A stretch of 64,000 nucleotides of DNA from Parelaphostrongylus tenuis. Its lineage: Eukaryota > Nematoda > Chromadorea > Rhabditida > Metastrongylidae. The position numbers were made by a program, and so were the translations under genes. The stretch covers positions 62,001-126,000 of the forward strand of contig JAHQIW010001527.1 of NCBI GenBank assembly GCA_019055375.1, given 5' to 3'. Of this stretch, positions 38,922-63,832 are shown piece by piece. Below the pieces are notes generated by a model, which was given only the letters and a program-made list of their open reading frames with translations, ran no database searches and was not told the DNA's origin. Each line of letters begins with the position of its first letter. Within the stretch, counting starts at the first letter, position 1.

Positions 38922-39000
38922 AGCGGAGGTATGTAACGAAGTAAAATAAGGACGAATAATATGTAGGCCTTTAGTGAGAAAGTCCCACAGAACGGTTTCT

Positions 39001-39045
39001 GCCGAGCTGACGATTCTGGAAGGATGAAACATGAGTATAGTGCTG
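39001..39045 (+). ncRNA. Hammerhead ribozyme relic, first of a tandem pair
   Basis: Core CTGACGA and GAAAC are kept, but stem I and stem II (TTC...GAT) pair poorly. It lies ~320 bp before the intact motif at 39,321. Confidence 0.6.
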
Positions 39046-39049
39046 TACA

Positions 39050-39430
39050 AGAGCCCTTACCAGACCACATGATAAGTTGGCTCGAATCATAATGAGAGGA
39101 TATATTGAAATTTGAGCGTGATCTAAACGAAGCACTCGAAATAAAGGTATAATTATGATAAAAGTACCAGCCAAAGAGCAATCGAGTGCGCAACACACTG
39201 TGTTGGGTGAAGGTTTCACTTGACATGGAGTGTAAAGCGTTCGTCGTCGATGACTCTCTATAAGGAGTGTGAGGCTCCCGAGAGAACTGGCTATGAAAAG
39301 ATCGACAGACGACGGGTTCTGCCCGGCTGATGAGTCTGCAAGGACGAAACACGTGTCTCGGGCTGTACAAGAGCCCTTACCAGACCACATGACAAGTTGG
39401 CTCAAACACTAATGAAAGGATCCATTGAAA
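39050..39430 (+). mobile_element. Hammerhead repeat unit, tandem partner (R1a only)
   Basis: From TTACCAGACCACATGA near 39,057 to the same phrase near 39,378 is one ~320-bp period with one ribozyme. R1b lacks it, so it is a tandem duplication or dimeric insertion within R1a. Confidence 0.7.
39321..39363 (+). ncRNA. Type I hammerhead ribozyme motif, intact
   Basis: Stem I GCCCGG with TCGGGC; CTGATGA; stem II GTCT-GCAA-GGAC with a GNRA tetraloop; GAAA; loop-less stem III ACAC/GTGT; cleavage triplet GUC. This is the classic arrangement of schistosome and newt repeat hammerheads, which need a dimer or a companion stem III. Confidence 0.9.
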
Positions 39431-39431
39431 T

Positions 39432-39668
39432 ATGAGTACTGATGAGAAAGAAGGATCATCACACTCAATGACTGATGTAGATGATCATTTTGAGGCGAAA
39501 ATCGAAGGTGGTTTATGGATTGGATTTGCAGATGAATTTTCCGTTTATTGTTCAGCAGTAGTCTATCATTTGCAGGACACTGAAATGTCGAAAATCCGAA
39601 TGAACGAGGGTAACATAAAAAGAATGACACCAGAGGGCGTTGCTCTGATCTTTCGTTCAAGAAGATAA
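39432..39668 (+). CDS. Small ORF of unknown origin (R1a)
   Basis: 78 codons starting MSTDEKEGSSHSM, acidic at first, then DDHFEAKIEGG. R1b has a longer open version at 60,817-61,122. No domain is recognised. It starts right after a hammerhead unit and could be part of a transposon or a chance ORF; many substitutions between the copies are non-synonymous. Confidence 0.2.
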   Translation: MSTDEKEGSSHSMTDVDDHFEAKIEGGLWIGFADEFSVYCSAVVYHLQDTEMSKIRMNEGNIKRMTPEGVALIFRSRR

Positions 39669-39859
39669 ATTTTTTCTTACTTTCATTATGACATCAATTG
39701 AAAATTAAATTTTTTCTTACTTTCATTATGACATCAATTGAAAATTCATCCTCTTCGGCAGCCGACGATATGTACTACCTTGTTTAAACCAATTTCAAGC
39801 ACTCAAACTCCTGCGAAAGCCGAATTTGTTCCCAGAAGGAATATGGTAGCTACACGAAT

Positions 39860-40370
39860 TAACAGCGTTAGCGATCCATTACGTCTTTCTGAGTGTTGGT
39901 CGAAAGATTACAATTACAGAGGTACTATCACGGCATCGATAAAGTGCAAAACATGGAGCTTATGTGTCATGTATTCGTAGTTGGTAAAAGGAGAAAAACC
40001 TCTAGCGGATTGGCTGCGCTAGGCTACACGTTATTTTTGCCAACGTTTGCTACGTTTCCACATATCTAAACAACAAGTTGATGATAATAAGTGCTCCGCA
40101 ACTAAGTTGCTTGTTAAATGCTTACGAGGAACCTGTTATTTCTGAAACGTCGGTGTTCCCACTATAAGAAAAAAAGAGGTGTCGTGTTATAAAATATGTA
40201 TAGAGTGCAGTATTGCTTGCGGTGACTAATAAGGCTGTAGATCAACCGAGCTAACCCAACTTTAGATTGGAAATGTTAATCTGTGCTTGCTTTTGCACCT
40301 GTTTAATATGCTAACCCATCAGACTTCCTAAGATGTCTTGTTGCGTAGCTGTAGATCATCTGTTGATTTT
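39860..40370. other. No gene recognised
   Basis: No supported coding or RNA feature between R1a and the next hammerhead element. Confidence 0.4.
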
Positions 40371-40436
40371 TTTTGTTTCGAGTGTTTTCTCAAGACCACA
40401 GCTCATATTTCAGTATGCCTGATAATCATTTTCGAG

Positions 40437-40850
40437 CCACGCATGTCAGTGGTCTGTCAAAGAGGGCTGACTTATGAAACTCGGGCCCCATAAGTCAGAA
40501 CTCTCTGACAGACCACTGACATGCGTGGCTCAAAAAATGGTTATCAAGCATATTGAAATTTGAGCTGTAGCCTTAAGAAAACACTCGAAATGAAAGATAT
40601 GATATATTGAATATACCAGTTAAGAGCAATCGAGTGTGCAACACTCTATGTTCGGTGATTTCACTGAAGATAGAGTGTAAAACGTTTGTCATCGCTAACT
40701 CTTAGTGTGAACATAGGAAAAGGCGAGAAAGGGTAACTGCCCGACTGACGAGATCGCATGATCGAAGCACGTGTATCGGGCTTTATAAGTCAGTCCTCTT
40801 TGACAGACCACTGACATGCAGAGCTCAAAAAATGATTATCAGGCATCTGT
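40437..40850 (+). mobile_element. Hammerhead repeat element, second subfamily
   Basis: It begins with a near-perfect foldback (40,437-40,533, arms with TGTCAGTGGTCTGTC), followed by TTGAAATTTGAGC, a hammerhead at 40,739, and a second copy of CTGACAGACCACTGACATGC-like tail about 298 bp after the first. This makes it a unit flanked by its own tail on both sides. Confidence 0.7.
40739..40781 (+). ncRNA. Type I hammerhead ribozyme motif, near-intact
   Basis: Stem I GCCCGA/TCGGGC (six pairs); CTGACGA; stem II GATC-GCAT-GATC; then GAAG, so the closing pair of stem III is G-U instead of A-U; stem III GCAC/GTGT; triplet GUA. Probably weaker but still foldable. Confidence 0.8.
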
Positions 40851-41119
40851 GGATTGTTCGTGGAAACTAGAACTGGCAGTCTAAAAAAAAAAATAAAGAG
40901 CTCATCAGTTTGTTCTCAATTTTTCGTAGACATCCGTTCACGGTATTCATACTCACTATCAATGTAAGGTACGTATTAGCAAGTGGACACGCCGTTGTGA
41001 TAATTACGAAACTTTTTTTATTTGATTTATGGAGTTTATGTCGACCTTTGTAAAGCTTCTTTTGCAAAATAGTATATGCTGTTTTTGGACTCGTGCTTTT
41101 GATACGCTTGGTGGCCATA

Positions 41120-42230
41120 TAGGTCAGTGATATAGTTTATGTATAATTTTGTCATCCTTAATTACCTTCGTTTTGTTTTGCTGCATTCTAACCTAAAGCA
41201 TTCTGTTTTCTCTTTTTTGGCTGCAATTTTGCTTCAAATGTCTTCTTTTTTCGGTAAACATGAGCATTTGAGTGTTCCGCATCGATCTCATAGTTGGATG
41301 CTCCCTTCAAAACTCGCTGATATCACGCTTATTTCAAACCCTTTTTGGATTCCTCGAATTCTGAAAGCTTGCTGTGCTTTGTATTAGCCAAATATCTCAA
41401 TAATATCTGCTATCAACTTCAAGTCTCTATTTTGTGAGGTCTAACATGAATTAACATTTTTTGAATCCCTTAAATTCTGAAAATTACTATGTTTTTTATG
41501 TTGCAAAGCTAGCAGTTTATGAACGCCGTATGCTTTTAAGAAAACCTACTTTGTATCGTTCTGTATTCATAATTCTTTGTGATTCTGATTACTAAACTTT
41601 ACATTTGATAAATGACCAAGTTTATCCTTATTGTATTTGCCTTAATTTCTTGAGTGAGTTTCTGCTTGCTTTGCAATGCATAATTTTGCGGTCGCTGTTG
41701 CCGTTTGGAATCCTTAGACTTCATGTTCTTTACGTTTACAGTAATATGTATCCTCGAAAAATCAAAGAACAAAAGATTCATACGGCAGTAACATAATCTA
41801 TCAAAGTGCCATAACGTATTCATTTATGAACACTGTATATTCTCCAAAAAAATCAGATATTTTTTATGAAATATTCGGCAACAATAATGTTTTTCTGTTT
41901 GCCATTTTACCCATCATCTGTTATCCAAGAAAATGTTGGAATTCACATGTCTGCTTGGCTGTCATTTGATGATTTTGATCTTCTCATAGGTTAGCTTATT
42001 GTTGAGTGAACTGTAGCAAATGGGAGCATGCTTGGTCATGAACGTGGTCAAATCATGGACCGTTCTGTGATGCATGATTTTTCAAGCCATTGCGCACTCA
42101 CGCCCTCAAGTATAAGTGCTCAAATCTAATTTTCTAACACCTATATGAACCTGGGCTTAAAGTTCGGTGGCGAATAAGTCTTTGCATTAGCATCTACCTG
42201 CTGGAAAATTCGGCTTACAGCTTAATCTAA
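41120..42230. other. Unassigned AT-rich stretch
   Basis: Short hydrophobic ORFs only, without splice signals or motifs. Confidence 0.4.
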
Positions 42231-42234
42231 TCAG

Positions 42235-43890
42235 AACCGTTCAAGATGAGCGGCAATTGCTTGATGAAAAACACAATCCCAGAATTGCTAAAACATGAAC
42301 GATACTTTGATATTAATTAAGACTAAGAGAGTAGTGATCTGAAAACAGCTCAAGCTTGACTAAACTCACGGCTGATTTGTGCTTTCCAGATCATATTGGT
42401 TAGCGGGTGGATAGCACTGACAGTGTTAAAATATGGCTGAAAGAATGTTACACTAAACTCTCTGATGATGTAGTGGTAATGTGTGCACCACTGCAAAATG
42501 TAATCGTAGGTTCGAGGCCCACACGATATTCCGAATTACTCTCGTTCAAATTTTTCTGAAAGTGATCTTGCAGGAACCATTGTTTCTTATTTTTTCACGG
42601 CAATAACCGCCTACAGATTCCTGAAACAACTACCATCGCTGCTCGCAATTTTTTAGGTCTAAAAATCAGGTGACCTATAACTTTTTTAAACTGCTTTGGG
42701 CACCGATAACCTTAATCTCTCGTTTTTTACATAAATTCTGAGCAGTTTTGGTTATCGCTTCCGTTATATATGCCGGAAAAATTATAGATGCGATGCACTT
42801 TTTATACAAAAATTCTGCCAATCATCGCTCATGTGACCACGCCACCTCTCTCCAACTCAACTGAGGAAACCTTCATCGACGAGAATTTCCTGTTGTCTAC
42901 GACTTTATTAACAGCAGCAGTCGGTACGCTTACGGCTGTCTTGAAGTTCTTTTCAACATTTTTTTTTCTGTGAATTCCAGCAGCCTGTAATGATTATGAA
43001 TGAAAGATTATAGTATTGAGTTATTTGGAAATTTGTGTAAGATTTGTTTGATTCCGTTTTCTTTAAAGCGCCTAGCAGTATTTTTTTCAAACAATGTGCT
43101 ATTACATATCATTACATTTCCAATTTAATGTATATTTGCTCCTTATAATTCAGCTGAAATTTGAGCTAAAACAAGCTTTAGCTTGTTTGCGATGGCGTGT
43201 ATCCTCCCCAGGTACACGAATATTCAAAGAAGTTTGCTGTTGAACAGAGTTATTTCCCCCAACATTCAATAAATCATAAAGCAAATCAGCATAAATCCTG
43301 GCGGTTCTGAAACTAATTAAGGTATTGAAAGGTCTCTATACAGCTCTGCAAGAGCAAAAAGAAGATCATATTTTACCCGCAAAAGTTTACTCTACACTTA
43401 AAAGTTATATATCAACCAAAGTATATAAGCGCTTTGAGAAAAGCATAAAGTATAAGAGTCACATTGAGAAGTTCATTTTTGTCAAAAACGGTGGGGAAAA
43501 CTTTAGTTGATCTGCAGAAATTGAGTGCCCTCTTGCAAATCACTATCTGCGATTGAACACTGACGTCTCGCCCAAATTAAAGGTTGAGAATTGTAGTCCC
43601 AAAGTAGCAATGTCGCCAAATCTGGGAAAAATTGAAGCTTACTCCTAGTGCAGCAGAAGCCCCAAAACATGAATACAGTAGGATCAAGGTGATACCTATA
43701 AACGCACAGTACAACTCTGCTTCAAAAAATTTCGTCGTAATAATATAAGAGGGACTATGCCGCAAAAATCCTTCTGATATAGATGTTGGTAAATTCAAAG
43801 TCTTAGCGGGAGCAAATATACGCATAGCTGCATGAGATTTTGCTAAAGAATACGCTGTGAGCATCTCAGCCAAGTCTTTGCAGAAGCTCA
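42235..43890 (+). repeat. Inverted repeat IR2, left copy (unknown element)
   Basis: Reverse complement of 55,853-57,690. It contains a tRNA-like stretch (42,461-42,530) and old coding frames on the plus strand: near 43,325 LKGLYTALQEQKEDH and YKRFEKSIKYKSHIEKFIF, near 43,520 an IECPLANHYLRLNTDVSPKL stretch, and near 43,680 EYSRIKVIPINAQYNSASKN and KVLAGANIRIAA. All are broken by stops. The family is not recognised. Confidence 0.75.
42461..42530 (+). pseudogene. tRNA-like pseudogene or SINE head
   Basis: A-box-like GATGTAGTGGTAATGTG and B-box-like AGGTTCGAGGCC at tRNA spacing. The T-arm pairs at 4 of 5 positions, but no convincing acceptor or anticodon stem forms. Confidence 0.4.
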
Positions 43891-44720
43891 CGAGGTCGGT
43901 GGTTCGATCTCGCGCCCATCACTCATCAAGCCATCCATCTCTCCGGGTATCGGTAAGTTGGTAGTATGATGGTCTCAGCCTTATCTGGGAGATATTCAGC
44001 ATTGACTTGGTTCAGCAGGAGGCCACCACAAGTTATTTTGAAGGCCAGATATGCATTCAATCACCTCCAACGAAGTTAAAATTCCAGGGCACAAATCCAT
44101 GGCGCATCCATCAGAAATTGACCAACGCTGAAAGCCTTATCTTTTATTCAGTGGCACCTCTATACCTTCTGTTGCGGCCAAATTGTACAGATTTTGTTGA
44201 GTGCATAAACGTCTATGTTATCAGCCATTCTGCGTTCGACTAATCAGTTGAGTAGTCACAAGTTTTTTTTTGAATGAATCACCTTCAGTCATTTTCTCTT
44301 GCATGCACAACTTTTGATATTTCATTGTCACCTGTACTATGTACAAATCATTTTTACTATTCACTTCAGCTGCGAGAAACGCAGTCCACACAACAGAGTA
44401 TGAACTCGTACTTTGCAAGTGCGACTTCAAATTTTCAGAATTGATTACTCATCGTATTTACAATTCCTCAAATTTTTCTTAAATTGCTTACAAGAGCAAG
44501 TGGATTCAACTATATGAGCACAAACAGTTTAGCATACTGCCTATACAAATGACATCTGTTGATCACATTGGACAAGACGATGAAGCCAAGGCGGTGGATC
44601 ACATGTAGTGCTGTAGCACTATTATGTGTACGCATGCACTATCAATGCATTTATCTGTTGATTAACGAGTAGCATCATTATAAAAGCAAAAAATGAAGAA
44701 TGGAAATTTTATCATTCCAG

Positions 44721-44979
44721 GGAAGTACCCGATTTTTGTATGATGTTCAGGAGTGGTCGTGGTTCAGCAAGTAAAGAGAGGATTGTCAGCACAACACAGC
44801 TGTCTGAGAGGATGATTAGTAAGACAGCTTTGAAGAATGAAGACATATATGCAGAAAGATACGATGAAAATGAAGCAAAGGAAGCGCCAACAGCAGTTCA
44901 CGAAGAAGTGGATTCCGACACAGTGGATATTGTTAAGAGAATACCAAATGAGCCAACAAATGATATGAAGCCAAAATGA
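44721..44979 (+). CDS. Candidate terminal exon, unknown protein
   Basis: A TTCCAG acceptor ends at 44,720, after which a hydrophilic frame runs to a TGA at 44,977-44,979. It contains SKERIVSTTQLSERMISK, YAERYDENEAKEAP and HEEVDSDTVDIVKRIPNEPT. The acidic/Ser/Thr-rich composition is unlike the surrounding AT-rich noise. No domain is recognised, and an alternative acceptor lies at 44,750. It could be the 3' exon of a gene or a lone relic. Confidence 0.35.
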
Positions 44980-45214
44980 CGATAAATTCCAGAAACACAT
45001 GCCATGAAATCTTACTGCAAGGATTCTCAATTTATTTCGTCACTGTCATAATATCGATTAATATAAAATAATGTGTTATTGGCGTTTACTTCTTCACTCC
45101 ATTAATATCTTATGGTCATATAGACATGAATTAGGTAACAAGCACTGTAGTGGACTCCTTAATTTCTTTGTGAAAAAAGCACGAGATTTTTGGAATTTAT
45201 GTTTCATGATTGTC

Positions 45215-45400
45215 CTTACAAATCAATGGAGGTGTTTGACTGCGTGGATTGTGAACAGTCTAATCTTTCCAGGCTCCGAAGAAGATGAAAGCTTCTAAGC
45301 GTCAGCTGTATGAATAAATGCAATTGAAAAAGCAGCAAGAAATAAGGAATTACAGCAAAATAATGAGGTCAATAGATAGCCGGTCTTGGGAGTTACTGTA
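45215..45400 (+). repeat. Dispersed repeat, also at 15,160-15,330
   Basis: Second copy of the repeat described at 15,160; nothing else recognisable. Confidence 0.5.
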
Positions 45401-45590
45401 ATAGATTTTCAGTGCTCCATGAAACCTTCCCAGAGTAACATATCGTAGGTTTTCGAGGTTGCTAGTGCATGTTCCTATTAGAATGTAGATTTTTTTCATA
45501 TGCTTATTTTTTATTTTGAGGCAAGAGATGCGGAAATGTAGCCAGAGCTACCGATCCTAAGCATAAGCTAATGATTGTAAAACATCTGAA

Positions 45591-45782
45591 TTAGGCTTCT
45601 TTTGTCAAATGATCACCGATTGTAGTTAGCCTTGTTTGTGGGCATTTTGCACGAATCGTTAATTTCCTAGTTCGTGATAAACTAGACGTAGAAATAGATT
45701 CGAGTTGAAGACCAGCTGCGCTAGGATCTCTAACTAAGACATTTTTATGACGTCCGTGTGTTACTTTCCAAAAAGGGTGCAC
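45591..45782 (-). CDS. Candidate ORF, unknown
   Basis: Minus-strand frame with FWKVTHGRHKNVLVRDPSAA and SRTRKLTIRAKCPQTRLTTI, ending near 45,591. Basic, with no recognised domain. It could be a terminal exon or a repeat fragment. Confidence 0.2.
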   Translation of the reverse strand: MHPFWKVTHGRHKNVLVRDPSAAGLQLESISTSSLSRTRKLTIRAKCPQTRLTTIGDHLTKEA

Positions 45783-46029
45783 AATATGAAGCGTATTCTT
45801 ATGGTTGTTACATGTCTGCAGAATTCGATGGAAAGGAAATAACTTGTTCTACAATGAAAAAGAAAAAAGTGTTCAGCACTTAATCTCGCTCCAAAATCCC
45901 ATTACCTCTGTGCAAGCAAAACAAAAGTGCGACTTCTTCAAAATCATTGAACAGGCAGAATAGCTACCTCTAAATGTACACTGAACAGATTGTAACTGAC
46001 ATTATTGCAAAGCATGATGATTAAGTTCT

Positions 46030-46345
46030 ATCAAGAATAAAGAATAAAGATCTTGGCGTTGATCGATCCCTAAGGGATGCGCTATTCATTCGCTTTCAAT
46101 TTTAGCTTCGTTATAGGTGATTAAGGCATATCTGGCCTTCACAATGACTCGTGATGGTGTACTGATATATCGAGTCGGTGTTGCTTATCCTCCCAGACAA
46201 GTTTGGGACCAGTCTGCTATCAATTTACTGATCACGGAGGGATGTATGGCTTGGTGAACCATGAACGCTAGACTGAACCATCCATATTGTGTTCGGCGCA
46301 AAGCACCTCTAAGTACTGCGCTTCGTGCGTTCCTCTACATGTTGT
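46030..46345 (-). mobile_element. tRNA-derived SINE, uninterrupted copy
   Basis: The minus strand starts with a tRNA-like head near 46,345 (GTGCTTTGCGCC and GGTTCAGTCT). The body then matches the repeats around the RTE element (CATATCTGGCCTTCACAA, GAGTCGGTGTTGCTTA and TTGGTGAACCAT on the plus strand). It shows the pre-insertion structure of the element at 50,975-54,915. Confidence 0.6.
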
Positions 46346-46632
46346 TAGATGGTCCTTCTAAAGAGTTGTAGCCCCATCATTTCTAAAACCACTTTTAGAT
46401 TAATTTTAGTGTGCTGGAATCTTTTTTGAAAATTTCAGTAAAAAATATCGTTGTCATGTATGCCTGGTGCCCATATAACATTGAACGTGTGTCCACAAAT
46501 GCTCTCCCAGTTTTCTGTACCAGCCTTCATACCTTTTATTCAGAAATTTTGAAATTCACCGATATACGATCTGACTAAAATATTGTTTGGAAAATACACC
46601 TCAATGATTTATTTGACATATAATTCTTACAG

Positions 46633-46771: not shown

Positions 46772-46849
46772 TCATAACCAAACCTCCGAAAGACGGCTAA
46801 AAACACTTTTAAGGTCTACAAATAAAACAAATGGTTAAATAAATATTGT

Positions 46850-51138: not shown

Positions 51139-51166
51139 ATATGGATTAGTTTTGGTCTACCAGCCG

Positions 51167-51446
51167 AAATCCATCGACTGAACAGTGGTGATGGACCAGT
51201 GTCATTGTACACTACAGAATCACCACATACGCCTCTCTCCTGGCTACAATGTAGGGCTTAATGTGGGGCGGAGGTCACTGACATTCGTCTTCAACTTTCA
51301 ATTACGTCTGAGGTGATTAAATACATATCTGGCCTTTACAACAGCTCGCGATGGCCTCCCGCACTATCGAGTCAGTGCTGCTTATTCTTCTAATTGATTT
51401 ACTAACTCCGGAGGGGTGAACAATTAGGTGAACCATAAGCGCGAGA
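51167..51446 (+). repeat. ~280-bp direct repeat left of the RTE element
   Basis: Matches 54,567-54,852 in the same orientation (ATCCATCGACTGAACAGTGG start, ATAAGCGCGAGATCG end), at roughly 90% identity. It is part of a SINE body and is either an unusually long target-site duplication or element-associated terminal repeats, as reported for Rte-1 of C. elegans. Confidence 0.85.
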
Positions 51447-54400
51447 TCGCGGCTGGGAAGTACATGGAAGGCGGTTAGGAGTCACCTCCAACAAATAAGC
51501 TCCTCCCGCTCCTCCGAGAGAGACTGGCAAGCTACTCGTGAGTACCCACTTCCCACGTTTAGAGCCTGGCAAGCTATACGTTGGGTATCGAAATGCCAAA
51601 AACAGCAACAAATATGGGCCTCATTCCCCTGGCCCCGAAAGAACCCCAGGTACGGCAGCGCCAGGTAGGACGAGTACGGAGACGCTGCTAAAACCTCAGG
51701 GCCGAACTACGCTGCCAAGATCGAAACGGACTAAAATGACGATTTGTACCTGCAACGCAAGAACCCTTGCTCACGAATCCGTTGTAGAAGATCTATTGAT
51801 TCAAGCAAGAAGAATAAGGTACGACGTCATTGGCCTGGCTGAGACGAGAAGGCGCCATCCTTTTCACGCTGTTTATGACACCGGAGAAGAACTGTTCCTG
51901 GGTACATGAGATCGCAGAGGTGTCGGCGGCGTTGGCGTCCTCGTCAAACCGAGTTTGACAGTGAACATTGATTCGTTCGAACAACTAACAACCCGCATCG
52001 GACGATTACGGTTGAAACGATGTGGTTCTATGCTGGCTTTAACCATCTTCGTTGCTTACGCACCAACATCAAGCTATGACGAAGACAAAGTCGAAGTGTT
52101 CTATATAAACCTCGAAAAATTCCTCAGAGAAGATCATACATTTTTTAAGGTCATTGTCGAAGATTTTAACGCAAAAATTGGACCTAGAAGAACGTCTGAA
52201 GAACGTCACATAGGGACCCACGGATTAGAATGGAATGAACAGGGTGAGAGACTATCCGAGTTTATCATGACGACCAAAACCATCTATGGTAACTCGCAAT
52301 TCCAAAAGCCTCATTCTCAGCGATGGACGTGGGAGTCTCCCAATGGAGAGTACCATAACGAAATAGATCAGATCATAGTAAATCGAAGGTTTTGCCTGAC
52401 CGACAAGCCTCTTTCGCGTAACGTTCCGATTATAGAGGAGAAGTGAGAAAGCCGCTAAATTCAAACAACGAAGTCCCAGAACTACCATAAACTGAGATGT
52501 ATTCAAATCATTAGTCGGCTCTTGGGAAGATACCGTTGTCGACAACATCGACGAACAATACGATCGACTCGTTGAATATCTTCGCGTTAGCGCTATGAAA
52601 GCCGAGAGTCCTAAGGTAACGAAGAGACGCTTGTCTCCGCAGACACTTGAGCTGATACCTCAACGTGGAATCGCACGAGCTACAGGCGATCAAAGCCTTA
52701 CGTCCGAACTTGCGAAACGCTGCAGAGAAGCGATAAAAGAAGAACTCAAAGAGAGAAGAGCAGCAGTTACGGCAGAAGCTGCAGAAGCCGCGGAAGCTGG
52801 GAAGAACATTCGCAAAGCCCAGCCAGGCTTCGCCAACGATAAGACCAAGATAATTGCACTCCGACACCATGACGGGACACTTAGAGATTCGAGAAGGGTT
52901 ATGGAGAAAATCATCCACCAATACTACTTGGATCTCTTCGCTAGCCATGTCCTCTTACCGTCATATAAATTGAAAGAGTACAAATATGTGGTCCCACCTA
53001 TCCTCCCTTCCGAAATCGGGCATGCAATATCGTCGGTGAAGAACAGAACAACACCCGGTCCAGACAGGATTAGACCAGAACATCTGAAGAATCTGACGCC
53101 AGTTCTCATTAACACCCTGGCTCGGCTCTTCACTCGCTACCTGTCAGAATGCAAGGTCCCTATTCAATAAAAAGCCAGAAAGACCGTATTGTTGTTCGAA
53201 AAGGGTGACCTTCACGACATAGGCAATTATCGCCCAATCTGCTTGCTGTGCGTTGTATACAAACTCTTTACTCGAGTCATCCTAAACAGGATTAACAGAA
53301 CACTGGACGAAGGACAGCCATACGAACAAGTTGGGTTCTTAAAAGGATTTAGTACCATGGACCACATCCACACGATTACAAGACTCGCTGAAGTTTCACG
53401 AGAGTCTAAACAACCACTCTGTCTCACTTTAATCGATCTGAAAAAAGCCTTTGATTTAGTGGAAACAGAAGCGGTTATAAAGGCTCTGGATAACCAGGGC
53501 GTCTCTACTCGGTACATAATGATCCTTCGTGAGCTTTATAAAGATTCGCGTCCAAAATATCTCCATTCTACAACAATATCACCATTGACATAAGAAGAGG
53601 GGTTCGACAAGGCGATACAATTTCGCCAAAACTAGTCACTGCCACCCTACAAAACGTCATGCGAACATTAGAATGGGACGTAATGGTAGTGAAAATTGAC
53701 GGTCGACAAAAAAACCATCTTTGCTTTGCTGACGATATCGTTCTCATAACACCAAACATCAGCCAAGCGGAATGAATGTTGACTGATTTCGATAACGCCT
53801 GTGGAAAGATTGGTCTTCAACTGAATCTAACGAAAACAATGTTCATGAGGAATGGATGGGTTTCTAATGCCTCATTCACGCTGAACGGAACGGCAATCTC
53901 CGAATGCTCCACCTACATCTATCTAGGTCGTGAAATCAACATGATAAACGACCTAGCTCCAGAGTTGAGCAGGAGAAACCAAGCGGCTTGGGGAACGTTT
54001 AAGAGCATCGAAGATGTAGTGAAGAGGACAAAGAACATACGACTCTGTGCCTATCTTTTCGACTCGACAATCATCCCTGCCCTGAGGTATGCAGCAGAAA
54101 CCTGGTCGCTACGTAAGCAGGATGAAAGATCACTTGGAGTTATCGAACGCGCAGTCGAAGGCCGATGCTAGGAGTATCCCGTATCTCGCAAATGGAAGAG
54201 AGTATTCGAAGTTCCGACCTACGTCAGCGATCGAAAATCAGAGACGCCGTTCTACACGCCAGAATATCGAAAATAAGGTGGACCGGACACGTGATGTGCT
54301 TCAGCGACAACCGATTGACCAGAGCCGTTACCGACTGGATTCCTCGGGACGTCAAGCGCTCTAAAGAAAGACCACTGACCCGTTGGTCCGACTTCTTCAC

Positions 54401-54566
54401 GAAAGCGATAGAAGAGAGATATGATGCTCAGCGAATTCCTAGAGCGAGGAGGACCCACTGGGCTACTCTTGCACGCGATAGGGAAAAATGGAAGAGTTGC
54501 TGGTACCTGCTCGATTCACTCGGCGATCAACGCGACGACAGGTGATACAGGTGATACCGAACGGAA
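51447..54566 (+). mobile_element. RTE-clade non-LTR retrotransposon (decayed)
   Basis: A ~3.1-kb single-ORF element: an AP-type endonuclease followed by reverse transcriptase and a C-terminal region, typical of RTE elements abundant in strongylid nematodes. It ends in short tandem repeats of AGGTGATAC just after the stop at 54,545, the usual RTE 3' end. It lies between ~280-bp direct repeats and interrupts a tRNA-derived SINE. Confidence 0.9.
51538..54545 (+). pseudogene. RTE endonuclease/reverse transcriptase ORF, broken
   Basis: Endonuclease: TICTCNARTL and DVIGLAETRR (51.73-51.85 kb), GVGGVGVLV, and EDFNAKIG near 52.17 kb. The stretch that should carry the SDHR motif is deleted near 52,430-52,450, removing a catalytic His. 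Reverse transcriptase: TPGPDRIRPEHLK, NYRPICLLCVVYKL, EQVGFLKGFSTMDHI, the motif-A Asp in LIDLKKAFD, GVRQGDTISPK, and FADD at 53,725-53,736. The C-terminus has KIRWTGHV and RPLTRWSDFF. Breaks: stops near 51,907, 52,444, 52,495, 53,168 and 53,774; frameshifts near 53,545 and 54,165. The catalytic Asp residues of the RT survive, but no functional protein is possible. Confidence 0.9.
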
Positions 54567-54852
54567 TCCATCGACTGAACAGTGGTGATGGACCCGTGTC
54601 ATTGTACACTACGCCATCACCACATACGCCTCCCTCCTTGCTACAATGTAGGGCTTAATGTGTGGCGGGGGTCACTGACATTCGTCTTCAATTTTCAACT
54701 TCGTCTGAGGTAATTGAATACATATCTGGCCTTTACAACGACTCGCGATGGCCTCCCGCTCTATGGAGTCAGTGCTGCTTAGTCTTCTAATTGATTTACT
54801 AGCTCCGGATGGATGAATAATCAGGTGAACCATAAGCGCGAGATCGAACCAA
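54567..54852 (+). repeat. ~280-bp direct repeat right of the RTE element
   Basis: Right-hand copy of 51,167-51,446. It continues without a break into a tRNA-like head (to ~54,915), so this side preserves the SINE junction that the left copy has lost. Confidence 0.85.
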
Positions 54853-54915
54853 TGACCTTATGTGTGACGCAGAGCACCTGTAATCACTACGCCACATGCG
54901 CTCTTTTAACTTTTT
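54843..54915 (-). pseudogene. tRNA-like SINE head
   Basis: Minus strand: GCGCATGTGGCGTAGTGATT (A-box region) and CATTGGTTCGATCTCGCGC (B box and 3' arm). It resembles a tRNA, but the anticodon arm is irregular. Same head type as 46,345. Confidence 0.5.
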
Positions 54916-55740: not shown

Positions 55741-55852
55741 CCGTCTAACAGTCAAGTACCGTGAGTTGATTAGTATATTTCTGTGGCTCGGTGGTGCGAC
55801 ATGCTGCCAATATAGCAGCCATTTTTCCAGCCTTCTCAAACCGTAGATCTTC

Positions 55853-57690
55853 TTCAAAGACTTAGCTGAGATGCTTACAGCGTATTCTTTTGCGAAATCT
55901 CATGCAGCTATGCGTATATTTGCTCCCGCTAAGACTTTGACTTTACCAACATCTACATCAGAAGGATTTTCGCGACATAGTTCCTCTTATAATATCACGA
56001 CGAAATTTTTCGAAGCAGAGTTGTACTGTGCGTTTATAGGTATCTCCTTGATCCTACTGTATTGATGTTTCGGGGCTTTTGCTGCAATACGTCTAAGCTT
56101 TAATTTTTCCCAGATTTGGCGACATTGCTTCTTTGGGACTTCAATTCTCAACCTTTGACTTCGGCGAGACAGCAGTTGATCAATCGCAGATAGTGATTTG
56201 CAAGAGGGCACTCAATTCCTGCAACTCAACTAAAGTTTTCCCCAGCGTTTTTGACAAAAATGAACTTCTCAATGTGACTCTTATACTTTATGCTTTTCTC
56301 AAAGCGCTTATATACTTTGGTTCATATATAACTTTTACGTGTAGAAAAAGCTTTTGCGGGTGAAATGCGATTTTCTTTTAGCTCTTACAGAGCTGTATAG
56401 AGACCTTTGAATACCTTAATTAGTTTCAGAACCGCCAGGATTTATGCTACTGAACTGTAGGTGAAGTTTTGATAAAAATACATCCATAGATCCTACCTAA
56501 ACAAAAAAAATGTGCTTCAAGTGTAAAACGTAATCTTTTTAAAACTACTTTAGCGCACTTATGAAACCTTTTCAGAGATCAAGCACAGCATTGATATGAC
56601 CAAGAACGTTCGATTAGTCGCTGATTGTCGCAAATATAACTCTGTTCAACAGCAAAGGCCTTTGAATATTCGTGTACCTGGAGAGGATACACGCCATCGC
56701 AACCAAGCTAAAGCTTGCTTTAGCTCAAACTACAGCTGAATTATAAGAAGCAAAAATACATAAAATGGGAAATGTAATGATATGTAATAGCACACAGTTC
56801 GAAAAAAATAAAGCCAAACGCTTCAAAGAAAACGGAACTAAACAAATCTTACACAAATTTCCAAATAACTCAATACTATAATCTCTCATTCATAATCATT
56901 ACAGGCTGCTGGTATTCAAGGAAAAAAATGTTGAAAAGAACTTCAAGACAGCCGTAAGCGTAACGACTGCTGTTATTAATAAAGTCGTAGACAACAGGAA
57001 ATTCTCGTCGATGAAGGTTTCCTCGGTTGAGTCGGAGTGAGGTGGCGTGGTCACATGAGCGATGATTGGCAGAATGATTGTATAAGAGGTATATCGCATC
57101 TATAATTTTTTCGGCATACATAACGGAAACGATAACCAAAACTGCTCAGGATTTAGGTATAAAACGAGAGATTAAGGTTATCGGTGCTCAAAGCAACTTA
57201 AAAAAGTTATAGGTCACCTGATTCTTCTAGATTTCAAAAAATTGTGAGCTACGATGGTAGCTGTTTCGGAAATCTGTAAGCGGTTATTTCCGTGAAAAAA
57301 AAACGAAACAATGGTTCCTGCCAAATCACTTTCAGAAATAAGTTTGAACGAGAGTAATCCGGAACCTCGTGTGGGCCTCGAACCTACGATTACATTTTGC
57401 AGTGGTGCACACATTACCACTACATCATCACAGAGTTTACTGTAACATTCTTTCAGCCATATTTTAACACTGTCAGTGCTATCCATCCGTCAACCAATAT
57501 GATCTGGAAAGTAAAATCAGCCGTGAGTTTAGTCAAGCTTGAGCTGTTTTCAGATCACTACTCTCTTAGTCTTAATTAATATCAAAGTATTGTTCATGTT
57601 TTAGCAATTCTGTGATTGTGTTTTTCATCAAGCAATTGCCGCTCATCTTGAGCGGTTCTGATTAGATTAAGCTGCATATGAGGTCCGCCA
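55853..57690 (-). repeat. Inverted repeat IR2, right copy
   Basis: Inverted copy of 42,235-43,890, with an additional ~200-bp insertion near 56,450-56,640. The same broken frames are seen on the minus strand. Confidence 0.75.
57361..57435 (-). pseudogene. tRNA-like pseudogene or SINE head
   Basis: Inverted counterpart of 42,461-42,530 with the same box-like motifs (GGCCTCGAACCT on the plus strand). Confidence 0.4.
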
Positions 57691-57834
57691 AAAAAAGAAG
57701 CTGAGGTCATATACTGGTGAAATGCGTTGTTTAATCTTGAAATATATTTTCGAATAAATGAGATTATGTTATTCATCATTCCAATGTGCGTTTTTCGCTT
57801 TATATTTTGTTTCTAATGACGTACTACTTGCCGA

Positions 57835-58400
57835 TTAATTTACATTCAGCTTAGACTGTGGGAAGGAGCTGGTGGCTGCAAATGTAATCGCGATATTAAT
57901 GACTTCAAAATGGATCGTAAGTAGCAGAGGCATCACATAACATCAGCAATGCATTTGGTTTGAGAAATGCTAGCAGACTTCAAAGCAATCGCGGTGCAAA
58001 GAGTTTCGTAAAGGAGTCGCTATCCAACAATGCTTTGACCGCAATCATTCTTGCACCGGCCTAGCTAGGAGTCATGAGAAAAGTACTAATCAAGGCTGAA
58101 TCTCTTAAGGCTACACGACATTTTGCAAAAAATTTCAGTGTCGGCTCTACTAATGTCACCATGTGAATCAAATTACTAATGCAACTGTGATTTTGACGCG
58201 GCTTGAAACCGCCATTACTTTTGCATCAAACTTCTTATATGATGTTGGAAAGCTTGTAAATACGACTTACCTACGACTGTAGCAGTGAGACCTACGATTA
58301 CGGCAAAGTTAGCCATAATCACAGCTTGTTCCTTAGCTATGGTGATGAAGAGCATTCGTCCGTCTAGCACAACAGCAAAGCCGACAATGATTTTTTCAAC
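57835..58400 (-). CDS. 3' exons of an unknown membrane-type protein
   Basis: Two minus-strand exons are well bounded. Exon 58,400-58,271 follows TTTACAG and ends at GTAAGT; it is open in one frame only: VEKIIVGFAVVLDGRMLFIT then IAKEQAVIMANFAVIVGLTA. The terminal exon 57,875-57,835 follows a TTTGCAG and, in the right phase, adds ATSSFPQSKLNVN and a stop. Two hydrophobic stretches suggest a membrane protein C-terminus. The 5' exons lie further right and were not identified with confidence. No family is recognised. Confidence 0.55.
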
Positions 58401-58921
58401 CTGTAAAGTTGATCACTGCCGATTATCAATGATAACATATCAGTAATCAATTAGTATCTAAATCCATTATATTATGCATTAACACCACCATGCAATGCTG
58501 GTGGTGCTGACTAGCGTATTTGTTCACACTATGGCATCAATAATAACAGTACTAAGTTAGTAGTTGCTTTTACATTAAAACTCAAAATTAACGTGAGTAT
58601 ATTCAGTTTCCTTTTGTGCGTCATCACAGACACGTAGTGTCGGACCTTCAAAAAGAATAAATGCCTTATCATCATTTGAGACGAAATCTAATAAACTTAA
58701 TGAGCAGTCGAAGTGATAAATCTAAATGTATTGCTTCCCGAACAGTGTTTTCGTCGATACGACATGCAATGGGCATAACGGGGATCAGTTCAGGTTTCTT
58801 CGGATGGCCTAAGTTCAAAAGATAGCAAGATCAGAGTGACGAATTACCACATCACCTTCCGATGTTCAAAGAATTTTTGCGTTTGCTCCTATCATATATA
58901 GTCCTAACTGTACCAATTGTT

Positions 58922-59340
58922 CCTTTCATTATTATTTGAGCCAACATGTCATGTGGTCTGGTAAAGGCTCTATTGATATTTGAGCGTGGTCTTAATAAAG
59001 CACTCGAAGGAAAGGTATAATGTGATAAAAATACCAGCCAGCTAGCAATCGAGTGCGAAAACACTCTGTGTTAGGTGAATGTTTCACCTGGCATAGAGTG
59101 TAAAGCATAGGTCGTCGATAACTATATATAAGAAGTGTGACGCTCCCGAGAGAACTGACTATGAAAAGATCGACAGACGACGGGTTCTGCCCGGCTGATG
59201 AGTCTGTAAGGACGAAACACGTGTCTCGAGCTGTACAAGAGCCTTTACCAGACGACATGACATGTTGGCTCAAATAATAATGAAAGGATCTATTGAAATT
59301 TGAGCGTGGTCTTTATAAAGCACTCGAAGGAAAGGTGTAG
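58922..59340 (+). mobile_element. Hammerhead repeat element with terminal inverted repeats
   Basis: The left end (CCTTTCATTATTATTTGAGC near 58,923) is the inverse of the right end (GGCTCAAATAATAATGAAAG near 59,270). The internal unit (from 58,972) restarts at 59,290 with TTGAAATTTGAGCGTGGTCT, giving a 319-bp period. One ribozyme lies at 59,189. It combines MITE-like inverted ends with tandem-unit structure. Confidence 0.75.
59189..59231 (+). ncRNA. Type I hammerhead ribozyme motif, intact core
   Basis: GCCCGG, CTGATGA, stem II GTCT-GTAA-GGAC (GNRA loop), GAAA, ACAC/GTGT, triplet GUC, then TCGAGC. One mismatch in stem I distinguishes it from the 39,321 motif. Confidence 0.85.
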
Positions 59341-59424
59341 CAATTGTTTTAGGAAAATCGTTCAAAATGCATACATCTCTTTTTCACGCAGTTATGCAGA
59401 TAAGAAGGAATTTTATTAGGTAGT

Positions 59425-60627
59425 TGTTACTCGGGATGCTGCCCGACCGACGACAGTGACGGTTAGCAGGAGATGATAGCTCGATGGAGCGGCATCAGGG
59501 CTATGTGCTGGGGTTGGTCCTGTGGTCCGCCTTATTTTACCCAAAATGTGCCGAGTCGAGCGTCATTTTGAAGAAGGTTAAGAATGCGTGGTTTGAACAC
59601 TTCTCTCACACTCTCGCAATTAACTTCCGAAGTTGTTCTTCGTAAAGTTGGCACTGTTTGTCTGTTTAATGTCGGACAGCTCCCAAATCATCATGCCCTG
59701 CAAACCTCAGAAAACCGAGAACATAATCTTTTGAGCATGGTACTTAGATTATGCTACAGCTGGTAGGTCTTTGCCATAAGATAGCCAGTAGGCGTGGTAC
59801 TCATTGTTATGATAGTAGGCTCAAGACTCATCTCTTGTGATGCAGAATTCAAAAAAATCATACTTGTGCGATCGCAGCAAGATACTTTCGTAGACGGTCA
59901 CGCGTGCAGCGCGGTCGTAGTCGGTCAAGGCATGAGTGACTATCGAGACATCATTAGTCAGACCCCTTCATTGTCTGCATCTTTGTGACCCCTGACTAGA
60001 ACATTCTCCAATGCACCACGGCCTTTTGGCAATAAACCGATTGAAAAATGAGAAAATTGGATGAAGCAATAGTGCGGAAAAAATTATGAGACAACTCAGT
60101 ACACTGCGCGGCATAATGTATATAGCCTTGTTCCATAGTTATAGTGTTTTACATAAGACGTACAATATAAATTAGTGGTCTGTCTGATTATGAAAAGCTT
60201 TAGAATTTTTTTTACAATCTTCTCCTTATTTCGTTTTCGCTGTGCACGGACATCAGCGAATACTATTAGGTGGGAAAGAAACTTCTGGGACAATTGCGAA
60301 AAATTGAAATTTATGCATGAATTCCAAATAAAGTCGGTAATATTTAATCTTCAAAAAAAAAAACCGTAGTTTCTTACGATTTTCTGCCATCTTTTCCAGA
60401 ACAACAATCAAATCTTCGTTGTTCAATTTTGTTACGTCCTGAACGAGGCTTATCTTCGAGGTCAAGATCTCCAGCTTTGAAGCGTTGAAACTAGTGTTCA
60501 TCAGCAGATTTGCTTGTTGTGCACTCCCATCAATTTCGTTGATTTCATCAACTGCAACTTTCCTTAAGAGATCCTTTCTACAATAATGACAGAATAGAAC
60601 CCGAACTTCGATAATATCGTTAGACAT
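59425..60627 (-). pseudogene. Decayed mariner transposase (R1b)
   Basis: Direct-repeat copy of 37,715-38,921. The N-terminal ORF is again open (MSNDIIEVRVLFCHYCRKDL onward), and the C-terminal block again reads APSSYHLL. The shared D-to-S change shows the element was dead before the repeat was duplicated. Confidence 0.72.
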
Positions 60628-60706
60628 GGCGGAGGTTTGTAACAAAGTACAATAAGGACGAATAATATATAGGCCTTCAGTGAGAACGTCCCACAGAACG
60701 GGTTCT

Positions 60707-60749
60707 GCCCGGCTGACGAGTCTGTAAGGACGAAACACGTGTATCGGGC
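60707..60749 (+). ncRNA. Type I hammerhead ribozyme motif, intact (GUA site)
   Basis: Stem I GCCCGG/TCGGGC; CTGACGA (position 7 is free in the consensus); GTCT-GTAA-GGAC; GAAA; ACAC/GTGT; triplet GUA. All required positions are satisfied. Confidence 0.88.
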
Positions 60750-60816
60750 TGTACAAGAGCCCTTACCAGAGCACTGACAAGTTGGCTTAAATAATAATGA
60801 AAGGATCTATTGGAAT

Positions 60817-61122
60817 ATGAGTATTGATAAGAAAGAAGGATCATCACACTCAATGATTGTTGTAGATGATCATTTTGAGGCGAAAATCGAAGTTGGTTTA
60901 TGGTTTGGATTTGCAGATAAATTTTCCGTTTACTGTTCAGCAGTAGTCTATCATTTGCAGGACACTGGAATGTGGAAAATCCGAATGAACGAGGGCAACA
61001 TAAAGAGAATGACACCAAAGGGTTTTGCTCTGATCTTTCGTTCAAGAAGAGAAATTTTTCTTACTATCATTATGACATCAATTGAAAAATCATCCTATTC
61101 GGCAGCCGACGATATCTACTAA
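60817..61122 (+). CDS. Small ORF of unknown origin (R1b)
   Basis: 101 codons, the R1b counterpart of the ORF at 39,432. The frame stays open beyond the R1a stop. No recognised domain, signal peptide or membrane segment. Confidence 0.2.
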   Translation: MSIDKKEGSSHSMIVVDDHFEAKIEVGLWFGFADKFSVYCSAVVYHLQDTGMWKIRMNEGNIKRMTPKGFALIFRSRREIFLTIIMTSIEKSSYSAADDIY

Positions 61123-61293
61123 CTTGTGTAAGCCAATATGGAGCACTCAAACCCTTGCGAAAGCCGAAATTGCTTGGAGATGGAATATGGTAGCTACACT
61201 GATTTTTTTGTCGGTGATTTTTTTGTCGGCGTCGATTTCTTTGTGTGTAGGGGTTAATCCCCTTGCAAGGAATTGGCTGAATCGAAGTGCACC

Positions 61294-61336
61294 GTGCTAC
61301 TAATGAGGCTGTAATGCCGAAACACGTATCTAGCAC
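61294..61336 (+). ncRNA. Hammerhead ribozyme motif with G5 lost
   Basis: Stem I GTGCTA/TAGCAC and stem II GGCT-GTAA-TGCC are good and GAAA is present, but the core reads CTAATGA. The essential G5 is A, predicting loss of cleavage. It belongs to the same subfamily as the 13.3/16.4-kb foldbacks (GTGCTA stem I). Confidence 0.75.
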
Positions 61337-61349
61337 TGTAGTGCCATAT

Positions 61350-62570
61350 CCGGGCTCAAGATAGGCTTAAGATATGTTGGTGGACTTATTGTAGTGATTA
61401 AAAAATTTTCAACTCTTTGTTCTACACAGTTCAAGTGAACGTTATTCAGGCCGTTGCGACTCGAAAAACGGATCAGGAAGTTACTACGGGGAGAAAACAC
61501 ACAGAAACTGATAATTTATGCTCAAGAAGACGTCGGTCATAACTCTCTAAAACGACTTATTAGTTTTCGAAATAATTTTTATTTAGCTACAACTTACTCT
61601 ATTCGTATATGGAATTTTTATGTCTTTCATACATTCGGAATATTCATTTTCACTTAATCTTAAGTTGTTATAAATCTATACTAGAATCGGATAAGGAACC
61701 TTTGTGCATTCTGAGCTTCTGAATAAAATTTATCATGGTATTAAGTAAGCAACATTCACTTTCAGATAATTTGGATGTGTTTCATATACTTGGCATGTTG
61801 ATACGTCATGACTTCTGAGCTAGCGCTATCTCTCCGTACAGTTGTTTACCTACCCACTAAAATAAAACCCGTGGCTGCATTCGCTCGAGTATGATCCCTT
61901 ATCAAAGTTATCGTGATTGATAGCCTTTTAAGTGTCATTTCGAGTTCTCTCGGATACTTTTACAGAGAGGTTTTTGAGATAACTGTTAGTGTACACATAT
62001 TTTCTTCTGTTATTCGGGATCGAATAAAGTAGCGACAGCTCTGCTGTACAAAGACTTTTCTTCATACTTTAAGCAATCATTGCAAAGTTTATATTTCTGG
62101 TTACTGCGCTAAGTTGCCGTTCCTTAAAAAGGCTTTTTTCAAAATCTATAAAAGGAGGAAGACATTTGTGTTACGCGCTCGAGTTTCTCTCACAGTACAG
62201 AGCTCATTCTCTAAACTATTACTAACCATATGATACAGTAAGTCTTCGTCATTCCAACACTGTGCTTATTTAATAGAAAGACCGTTTTACTGTAGTGTAG
62301 TAAGAAAAATAAGATCAAGTTTTGTATAGTCAGTGCGCCTATTTGCCCGCTAATCAGCGGTCGGGTGTCTGGCGTCCGTAGACTGGATGCGGTGCTCCGT
62401 ATCGATCGACTGTAGTACGCTGGCGCGTCACATGTGAAGTGTGATTTCTGCAGTTCGATTGGGAATTTTTTCTCCGCTTCGAATGAAACTTGAAATGAAG
62501 CGCATGATCTTGATGCTATACGATTTCTTCTGCACGTTCCTATGCTTTTCGTGCTTTTGATGGAGTAAAA
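61350..62570. other. No gene recognised
   Basis: AT-rich except for a GC-richer island at 62,330-62,470. No supported feature. Confidence 0.4.
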
Positions 62571-62579
62571 GTAGAAGAA

Positions 62580-62745
62580 ATTGTCGGATGTAAAACATAA
62601 TTAATTTTGAGTGTCACAGCGTTATAATAGGACCTTTATAATAAAGGGAACTTGTAGCTCAGTAGGCAGGGATTTGAGATATCGAAAGCTAATTAGCAAT
62701 ATTATAAAGACTTTCTGTTCAGCGAGAGGAGTCGTTTCTTTGTTT
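62580..62745 (+). repeat. Dispersed repeat family P, partial
   Basis: CACAGCGTTATAATAGG then an A-box-like TGTAGCTCAGTAGGCAGGG; matches the right part of the 54,960-55,740 copy. It hints that family P has a tRNA-like segment. Confidence 0.45.
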
Positions 62746-63322
62746 GTTCCAGGATAACGGAGAAGGCCTTTGCACCATGGAAGACTACCAAATTATACTC
62801 TAAATGAGTAATTTATGGGAACAATACGTATGGACGTTGCCTAATTTGAGGTTACGAACGCGCTGGTTTCTTTATAACTTTCGACAAACTGCGATAAGCA
62901 AATGTCATCTGAGTTGAGAACAAAACTGAATTGATACCACCCTGATAAATCCCTCTGCCGGTTTGAGTAATTTGTATGTACTGTTAAAGATGTGTTGGGT
63001 GGGCTAATCAAACAAGCACATTATTGTCAGCGACTGAAAGCTTCTGTGTTGAGCATATTTACGCACTTTTTGCACCCACTCATTCCATACGGTTAGTGTG
63101 ACCTATTAATGCATTTTGAATTAAAAAGGCTGACAGCCTGTCAATGAATTCATTTGTGAAAACTCTTTGCAGATTTATCAAAAGAACGAAGCTTTCATCT
63201 GGCCGACGTTCGCCACAAAAGCTATGATGTGAAAGCAATAGATCGGGAAAGAATTACATGCACAAAATAAATGACTAGAAAGAAATGCACAGCGTAGTTT
63301 TACATATGGCTAGTAACTCACG

Positions 63323-63522
63323 CCATCGCGTAACGTTGATATGAAACCACTTGGAAGATGATTCCAACTGATGAAGAATTGGCAGCAGTTAAAAGTGCAG
63401 CTTGGGCGTCCAATGTCATCATAGCTACTGCTTTGGTGATGGAAATAGTCTGCTAGTCCATTACCATCACGACGAGTAACAAAGTCATTTGGCTGTCCAA
63501 GAGGTCCTATTCGTCCTCCTAC
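63323..63522 (-). pseudogene. Degenerate paralogue of the 58,271 exon, or a separate exon
   Basis: Minus strand: TTATGCAG acceptor near 63,523 and GTGAGT donor at 63,322. One frame gives TISITKAVAMMTLDAQAALL, similar in pattern to the ITIAKEQAVIMANFAVIVGL of the 58-kb exon, but has upstream stops. Another frame, open across the whole interval, gives GGRIGPLGQPNDFVTRRDG. Which is real, if either, cannot be settled here. Confidence 0.3.
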
Positions 63523-63627
63523 TGCATAAAGGCACAGATCTCATGGACTGACGTCCGACCACTCTCCTTCATCTTGTCGGACTCATCAATGCAAACTAAC
63601 CTTAGTTATCGAATCATAAATCGTAAT

Positions 63628-63832
63628 ACAGCCGCGATCCATCAACTGAGAAGTGGTAATGGCCCAGTGTCACTTTACACTCTGCTGTCACCACGTGCGC
63701 CTCCCTCCTTACTTCAAAGCAGGGCTTGATGTGAGGCATGGGCCACTGACGAGGAGAGCGAGACACCCGAAACACGCGTGTATGGCTCTGGCGCAAGAAC
63801 CTCGGTAAGGTTCAAACATTCCTAACAGTCAT
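63628..63832 (+). mobile_element. SINE-like family S with hammerhead motif
   Basis: Related to 30,285-30,482 and to the ~280-bp repeats flanking the RTE element (shared CGCCTCCCTCCTT and GGGCTTGATGTG). It carries a ribozyme at 63,741. The corresponding position in the RTE-flanking copies has lost the core. Confidence 0.6.
63741..63787 (+). ncRNA. Type I hammerhead ribozyme motif, plausible
   Basis: Stem I GGCCA/TGGCT (one G-U); CTGACGA; a longer, weaker stem II (GG..G...C.CC); GAAA; stem III ACACG/CGTGT; triplet GUA. Stem II is the least certain part. Confidence 0.7.

Follow-up and report, generated by a model that had tools for sequence, protein, structure and literature searches.

Hammerhead ribozymes and their repeats in the window

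The stretch of DNA analysed here (the window) comprises 64,000 nucleotides of the nematode Parelaphostrongylus tenuis (contig JAHQIW010001527.1, positions 62,001 to 126,000), and it carries short dispersed repeats with type I hammerhead ribozymes on both sides of an RTE-like long interspersed nuclear element (LINE). A first-pass annotation had described about thirteen hammerhead sites as a family in nematode repeats. By unit similarity and core remnants, we likewise counted 13 sites on the type I plan (13325, 14480 and 16374 on the minus strand; 13396, 16447, 30403, 39007, 39327, 40745, 59195, 60713, 61300, which reads CTAATGA, and 63746 on the plus strand), although only four are intact, one of these with a stem I mismatch, and nine are decayed in core or stem. 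Six lie outside the interval 38990..63787 given for them, and the repeats that carry hammerheads fall into at least three families (A, B and C) rather than one.

An Rfam search of the window with cmscan, as the annotation had proposed, placed the hammerhead at 39321-39363 (plus strand) above the Hammerhead_1 gathering score (35.1 vs 34 bits, E 4.7e-5), whereas those at 60707-60749 (RF00163, 30.4 bits, E 0.0016) and 59189-59236 (RF00163, 29.2 bits, E 0.0042) fell short of it. No RF00163 match besides these three appeared in the window up to E 10, in a listing that omits three overlapping same-clan matches, and the other ten sites went unreported. A strict scan, requiring CTGANGA and GAA without any change as well as paired stems, detected three window sites, at 39327 and 60713 on the plus strand and 13325 on the minus strand, vs none in each of 10 random controls drawn from a second-order Markov model of the window. 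A looser descriptor permitting a stem I mismatch added 59195, where stem I (GCCCGG/TCGAGC) contains one mismatch; its matches at 26810 and 5956 (both minus strand) do not have an intact core and were taken as chance matches. The string CTGANGA by itself is weakly enriched in the window (51 vs 35.2 expected, with 1 of 100 shuffles as high).

Four hammerheads had been assigned the full plan, and all keep their cores and stems apart from the single stem I mismatch already noted at 59189..59231 (plus strand). The first, at 13284..13331, sits on the minus strand (no strand had been given) and reads GTGCTA / CTGATGA / GTCC..GGAC / GAA / ACAGGCGCCTGT / A in the strict scan, with a predicted cut before TAGCAC; for 39321..39363, cleavage is predicted between 39357 and 39358, after GUC. 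Close to the former, a hammerhead at 13390..13438 (plus strand) retains the core letters and stem I with an altered stem II (CTGCCCTGTAGGAT), while a decayed one at 30391..30445 (plus strand, CTGATGA at 30403) resembles family C by eye only, the C unit having given no match there.

We examined pairing in 18 hammerheads, of which 11 lie in the window and 7 at loci elsewhere. At 14 base pairs, 93.1% of their cells were paired; covariation scored 0.557, whereas shuffles gave 0.189 and none of 500 reached the observed value. Controls in which the alignment was slid reached a pairing of at most 46.7%. Since covariation and pairing are both far above shuffled and slid controls, pairing is conserved under sequence change, which bears out the earlier observation that the stem I strands are complementary across differing sequences. 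The palindromic nature of stem III was also recognized correctly (ACACGTGT in family A, ATAGGCGCCTAT in family B), but its description as loop-less has an alternative, namely two to four pairs closed by a four-base loop, a form already described in invertebrates and in one hammerhead of the axolotl (PMC7229834). Self-cleavage of the repeat RNAs into units is predicted. The central claim of type I hammerheads in dispersed nematode repeats is backed by the Rfam match, covariation and the genome counts given below.

The copies of family B in the window include two palindromes. One (13191..13516, with a minus arm at 13191-13350 and a plus arm at 13371-13516) is a self-inverted repeat matching the unit at 74.5% and 79.5%, with no flanking duplication of at least 7 bp; the other (16301..16586, minus 16301-16401 and plus 16423-16586) has two altered outward hammerheads, with CTGATGA at 16374 (minus) and 16447 (plus), and no flanking duplication was found at it. 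A decayed B copy at 61213..61369 (plus strand, unit match 64.6%) holds the hammerhead-like CTAATGA at 61300. Rfam microRNA-like matches at 13.3 and 16.4 kb, all below their own gathering scores, are the family B palindromes themselves and were set aside. As a separate observation, window positions 1-13462 and 16308-29705 form a giant inverted duplication (86-88% identity in three blocks) whose inner edges lie at the two B palindromes, the copy at 13191..13516 adjoining one of them.

Family A is represented by a tandem of about 1.4 units of 320 bp at 38979..39436 (plus strand), in which a decayed hammerhead (39007) and an intact one (39327) are 320 bp apart, and which is bordered by an 8-bp repeat (TGAGAAAG) at 38975 and 39443, an arrangement that recurs in relatives. 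A palindromic insertion at 58914..59348 has an 8-bp repeat (CAATTGTT) at 58914-58921 and 59341-59348, and the copy at 60693..60821 (plus strand) contains the intact hammerhead 60707-60749. An old A-like palindromic copy (40372..40896, minus 40372-40456 and plus 40509-40896) has CTGACGA at 40745 and GAAG in place of GAAA, and a decayed copy on the minus strand (14385..14652, unit match 64.7%) includes the site at 14480. We also observed a 1.47-kb direct duplication (37653-39116 and 59356-60821, 90% identity), which ends in or just past family A copies, the one at 60693..60821 among them. Family C has a copy at 63639..63821 (plus strand), with CTGACGA at 63746, a partly mispaired stem II and 76.9% identity to a C unit from another locus (L016).

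Genome-wide families and the architecture of insertions

In the genome (a 481.5-Mb assembly of 5,105 contigs), the exact core string of family A (CTGAYGAGTCTGTAAGGACGAAA) occurs 3,478 times and that of family B (CTGATGAGTCCN{2,8}GGACGAAA) 2,042 times, together 5,520 exact strings with mutated cores excluded, whereas the reversed patterns used as a control occur 0 times. Rfam scoring of 74 of 119,811 genomic candidates returned at least 31 RF00163 matches, 20 of those listed being over the cut-off. Units are about 283 bp long in family B and about 320 bp in family A, in keeping with the tandem spacings among the first 100 sites of each pattern (280-286 bp in 16 B pairs and 317-323 bp in 7 A pairs), and their GC content is 0.445 and 0.447, respectively (one unit each). 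Over four joined units, the longest frame opening with ATG spans 82 amino acids in B and 102 in A, as raw lengths considered apart from chance expectation or protein families. Locus L016 holds four B hammerheads in a row with ACAAATTAGAGG on each flank. Also at L016, a 13-bp duplication (AATTCACGAATTA) borders a palindrome of family C, whose stem I reads GGGGTCA/TGACCC and whose core reads CTGACGA. The carriers thus fit retrozyme-like short repeats, occurring as single or tandem units with target duplications.

Opposite-strand neighbours less than 1 kb apart, among the first 100 listed sites per pattern, were arranged outward (minus then plus) in 34 cases and inward in none (16 and 0 for family B, 18 and 0 for family A). 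These outward palindromes and their two fixed end places, described below, had no counterpart in the first-pass annotation. Mapping of whole insertions excluded blocks below 80% identity (78% in a held-out set), insertions shorter than 120 bp and those 30 bp or less from a locus end; six loci overlapping others (L006, L042, L045, L046, L057 and L059) were dropped before counts, and L078 and L079 yielded no mapped insertion under these filters. The 64 mapped insertions comprised 43 minus-plus, 20 one-way and one plus-minus-plus (L029). Among loci fetched regardless of pairing (L001-L060), the minus-plus arrangement was found in 27 of 47 insertions. Loci L061-L079 and L080-L099 were chosen for neighbouring core sites, and their orientation is not independent of that choice, while their ends and duplications are. 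Arms can be long: one B insertion has four units per side (L061) and another locus two plus two (L062).

A direct repeat scoring at least 9 flanks 27 of the 64 insertions vs 1.3% of 600 mismatched flank pairs. Exact duplications of at least 10 bp, present in 24 insertions, range from 10 to 16 bp and are most often 12 bp, with 19 of 24 at 12-14 bp. Four rows were omitted from these length counts and from the end counts with a laxer match below, namely L037 (likely one insertion assembled twice, and also left out of the nearest-neighbour test) and L061, L071 and L072 (simple repeats). On both sides, the 3' end of the flank beside the insertion favours TAA(C/A) over 48 boundaries, with A at 62% and 65% at positions -3 and -2, and C at 40% and A at 35% at -1. 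Junction microhomology of at least 3 nt reached 34% vs 5.6%.

RNAfold places two stems, alpha and beta, just after the cut in both A and B units, each whole unit having a z score of -3.3. The alpha stem (GCTCAAA/TTTGAGC within AGACC/GGTCT) has near-identical letters in the two families, and the letters of the beta stem differ (CAGTCGA/TCGACTG in B, GCACTCGA/TCGAGTGC in A). Among beta-like stretches from the loci and the window, 58 distinct ones have GCACTCGA/TCGAGTGC and 6 have ACACTCGA/TCGAGTGT, with both sides of the stem altered; all eight places pair in 65 of 88 matches to the beta pattern, which itself fixes the inner five letters. We define each loop as everything between the named stem arms, that is, unit coordinates 24-52 (B) and 50-73 (A) for alpha, and 82-116 (B) and 103-144 (A) for beta.

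The outer ends of insertions, as defined by duplications, concentrate in these two loops. With at least 17 of 22 letters matching the unit, 44 ends from all 33 rows with an exact duplication of at least 9 bp fell at 25-48 and 75-97 in B, and at 60-71 and 108-119 in A. When the four omitted rows were removed, leaving 29 insertions, and a laxer match was allowed, the two loops contained 49 of the 51 outer ends that could be mapped, vs 22% expected by length. Among 23 duplication-marked palindromes, 20 had one end in alpha and the other in beta, the remainder being one alpha and alpha (L065), one outside both loops (L019) and one unmappable at one end (L020). A held-out set of 20 further family A loci gave duplications of at least 9 bp in 9 loci (vs 1 of 380 mismatched pairs), with 15 of 17 ends in the loops and six of eight palindromes of the alpha and beta kind. 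In the window, the A insertion at 58914..59348 follows the same two-loop pattern, its outer unit coordinates by BLAST being 70 (alpha loop) and 114 (beta loop).

Inner junctions, on the other hand, spread widely over the unit: of 43 pairs of arms, one (L038) meets at an equal coordinate and two others (L049 and L062) at coordinates no more than 15 nt apart. Because equal outer ends or equal inner coordinates are rarely seen, inverted duplication of DNA and snap-back copying are both disfavoured. Copies within an insertion also tend to resemble each other, as the nearest neighbour of a copy belonged to its own insertion in 17 of 36 cases for A and 30 of 61 for B (shuffles at most 22-23%), and in family B the opposite arm was closer than any other insertion in 21 of 51 cases (shuffles at most 30%). 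Mean identity in family B was 0.953 on the same strand, 0.926 between opposite arms and 0.877 between insertions (0 of 1000 shuffles as high), and the corresponding same-strand value in family A was 0.914 (20 of 1000 shuffles as high).

Proposed reverse transcription from both target strands and its alternatives

Judging from the sequence features above, the window contains copies of at least three retrozyme-like families whose RNA is predicted to cut itself and was probably re-inserted when both nicked strands of the target primed reverse transcription, each at one of two predicted hairpin loops. A retrozyme would be transcribed, its RNA cleaved into units by the hammerhead and each unit closed to a ring by a host ligase, after which the alpha and beta loops could be recognized by an endonuclease and reverse transcriptase supplied by another element. 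The 3' end of one target strand would then start copying in loop alpha and that of the other in loop beta. Each resulting complementary DNA (cDNA) would cover less than one turn of the ring or, in some cases, several turns, and once the two had met and been joined, a head-to-head array would lie between duplications; priming by only one strand would give a plain tandem array. Both-strand priming at two loops predicts fixed starts, variable stops and outward arms, which is the combination recorded in these insertions. The stronger version of this proposal, in which each RNA ring has two loading hairpins, one per nicked strand, so that insertion is two-headed by design and proceeds as two reverse transcriptions round the same ring, leaving head-to-head arrays with as many as several units on either side, is one for which we see the balance as even.

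Several observations weigh against both-strand priming of a ring at two loops. Under the scoring used, no duplication flanks 37 of the 64 insertions or 11 of the 20 held-out loci, and two loci (L029 and held-out L093) have an extra plus block to the left of the minus-plus pair. Duplication-marked exceptions to the two-loop pattern include L065 (alpha and alpha), L019 (75/59), L087 (28) and L094 (74, one base outside alpha); others, with ends defined by BLAST only, are L038 (120/150), L039 (53/73), L058 (75/95) and L073 (75/88), and in the held-out set L089 (138/18) and L097 (64/61). The loops were named after the clustering of ends had been seen, the held-out data being the 20-locus set only, and RNAfold places short further stems inside both loops. 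Family A arms had their best match in the opposite arm only once in 7 cases, and opposite arms were on average less alike than copies in different insertions (0.798 vs 0.867, 5 pairs). No alpha hairpin was found near the 3' end of the RTE-like LINE in the window, which was considered as a possible helper. Lastly, a linear multimeric template would leave nearly identical footprints to a ring.

This last point leads to the alternative that fares best, in which the template is a linear multimeric transcript and both-strand priming on one or two such RNAs generates the palindromes. Ring closure of such RNAs has been reported in other animals (PMC7229834), which speaks for the ring, and likeness within insertions beyond that of shuffles fits repeated copying of a ring, even though a multimer transcribed from one array would have the same effect. 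In favour of the linear multimer are the rarity of mutual best matches between family A arms and one array (L038/L046, a single insertion on contig C314) with three tandem A units sharing the identical broken core CTCACGA, which should not be cut. As the broken core is common to these units, the array can evidently be multiplied or inserted even though its hammerhead would not be expected to cleave. On balance we regard a linear template as possible but doubtful.

In L1 twin priming, both nicked strands of the target prime on the RNA, producing an inverted arm together with a target duplication. The insertions could accordingly be ordinary animal retrozymes moved by standard LINE insertion, their inverted arms being occasional twin-priming accidents; duplications and microhomology fit any target-primed insertion, and twin-primed inversions are known for L1. 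Palindromes are, however, found in 27 of 47 insertions at loci not chosen for pairs, and the second, duplication-marked end falls in a fixed loop instead of being scattered. Unlike in L1, the second priming here seems to be tied to one place in a hairpin loop, and several units can be copied. We therefore consider accidental twin priming unlikely. An origin at the DNA level with incidental hammerheads, be it as a miniature inverted-repeat transposable element (MITE) with terminal inverted repeats, an inverted duplication or a recombination satellite, is very improbable, for although the palindromes resemble terminal inverted repeats and tandem units are alike, in most palindromes marked by duplications the ends fall at two different unit places (alpha and beta in 20 of 23), the arms share an inner coordinate in 1 of 43, no inward pairs exist among the sites listed, and duplications vary from 10 to 16 bp, a plain MITE, with the same terminus at both ends and duplications of fixed length, having been rejected on the first and last of these grounds.

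The hammerhead and the retrozyme kind are already known. Schistosome repeat hammerheads have a short, palindromic stem III. Metazoan non-LTR (long terminal repeat) retrozymes combine a type I hammerhead with tandem units of 170-400 bp and low GC, RNA rings being their supposed intermediates (PMC7229834). The P. tenuis repeats resemble them in hammerhead type, in a unit size within this range, in many dispersed copies, in a GC content under 45-50% and in target duplications of more than 4 bp (here 10-16 bp). They differ in host, as the main text of that paper does not name nematodes ('nematod' 0 times), and in their palindromic insertion and fixed end places, of which no description was found in that text ('inverted' 0 times). 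With Penelope-like elements carrying minimal type I hammerheads, a proposed enzyme source, they share hammerhead type and tandem copies (PMC7229834; PMC7761336), but here units are about 280-320 bp and stem III is a palindrome of 8-12 bases. A short palindromic stem III in repeats is also a feature of newt satellite hammerheads (PMC7229834); unlike these and the schistosome repeats, the loci examined here consist of scattered insertions, each of one or a few units and with target duplications, and not of long satellites.

In the published model, a suitably primed ring is reverse-transcribed to tandem cDNA by the enzyme of another retroelement, a Penelope-like one being a strong candidate; it leaves both the reverse transcriptase and the priming on the ring open, and the way in which retrozyme rings re-enter chromosomes is accordingly its open step (PMC7229834). 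The insertions described here appear to record that step, in that copying on each strand seems to have begun at its own fixed place and the target was duplicated. If true, both-strand priming at alpha and beta would represent a separate way of inserting circular RNA, in which target-primed, rolling-circle copying starts at two loops. The known range of hammerhead retrozymes would at the same time come to include a nematode, in which intact core strings number in the thousands. The main text presenting the published P. tenuis assembly (491 Mb, 7,285 scaffolds) contains neither 'hammerhead' nor 'ribozyme' (PMC10940269). Among the titles and abstract openings listed in the literature searches, which left most subscription papers and all supplements outside, none pointed to hammerheads in nematodes, to retrozyme palindromes facing outward or to ends in two loops.

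The RTE-like LINE and other features

The RTE-like LINE at 51.5-54.5 kb contains endonuclease-like and RVT_1 frames, and the best matches of its endonuclease frame (51910-52446) are from Angiostrongylus (81% over 85% of the query) and P. tenuis (91% over 70%). Two 285-bp direct repeats (51165-51449 and 54562-54846, 91.6% identity) flank the element, an LTR-like feature for a non-LTR element. The first 118 bp or so of these repeats match family C up to the hammerhead CACTGAC and then diverge, so that each holds a family C piece without a hammerhead (51163..51282 in the 5' copy and 54564..54679 in the 3' copy, both plus strand). Ribozymes of another class, twister, have been mentioned in RTE elements (PMC7761336). 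Just past the 3' repeat, at 54838-54905 on the minus strand, a tRNA-like head with a GGTTCGA box was noticed by eye only, perhaps belonging to a short interspersed nuclear element; ARAGORN detected no tRNA in the window. Further upstream, about seven units of 188 bp (81% matches) are repeated in tandem at 36295-37651, beside an AT dinucleotide run.

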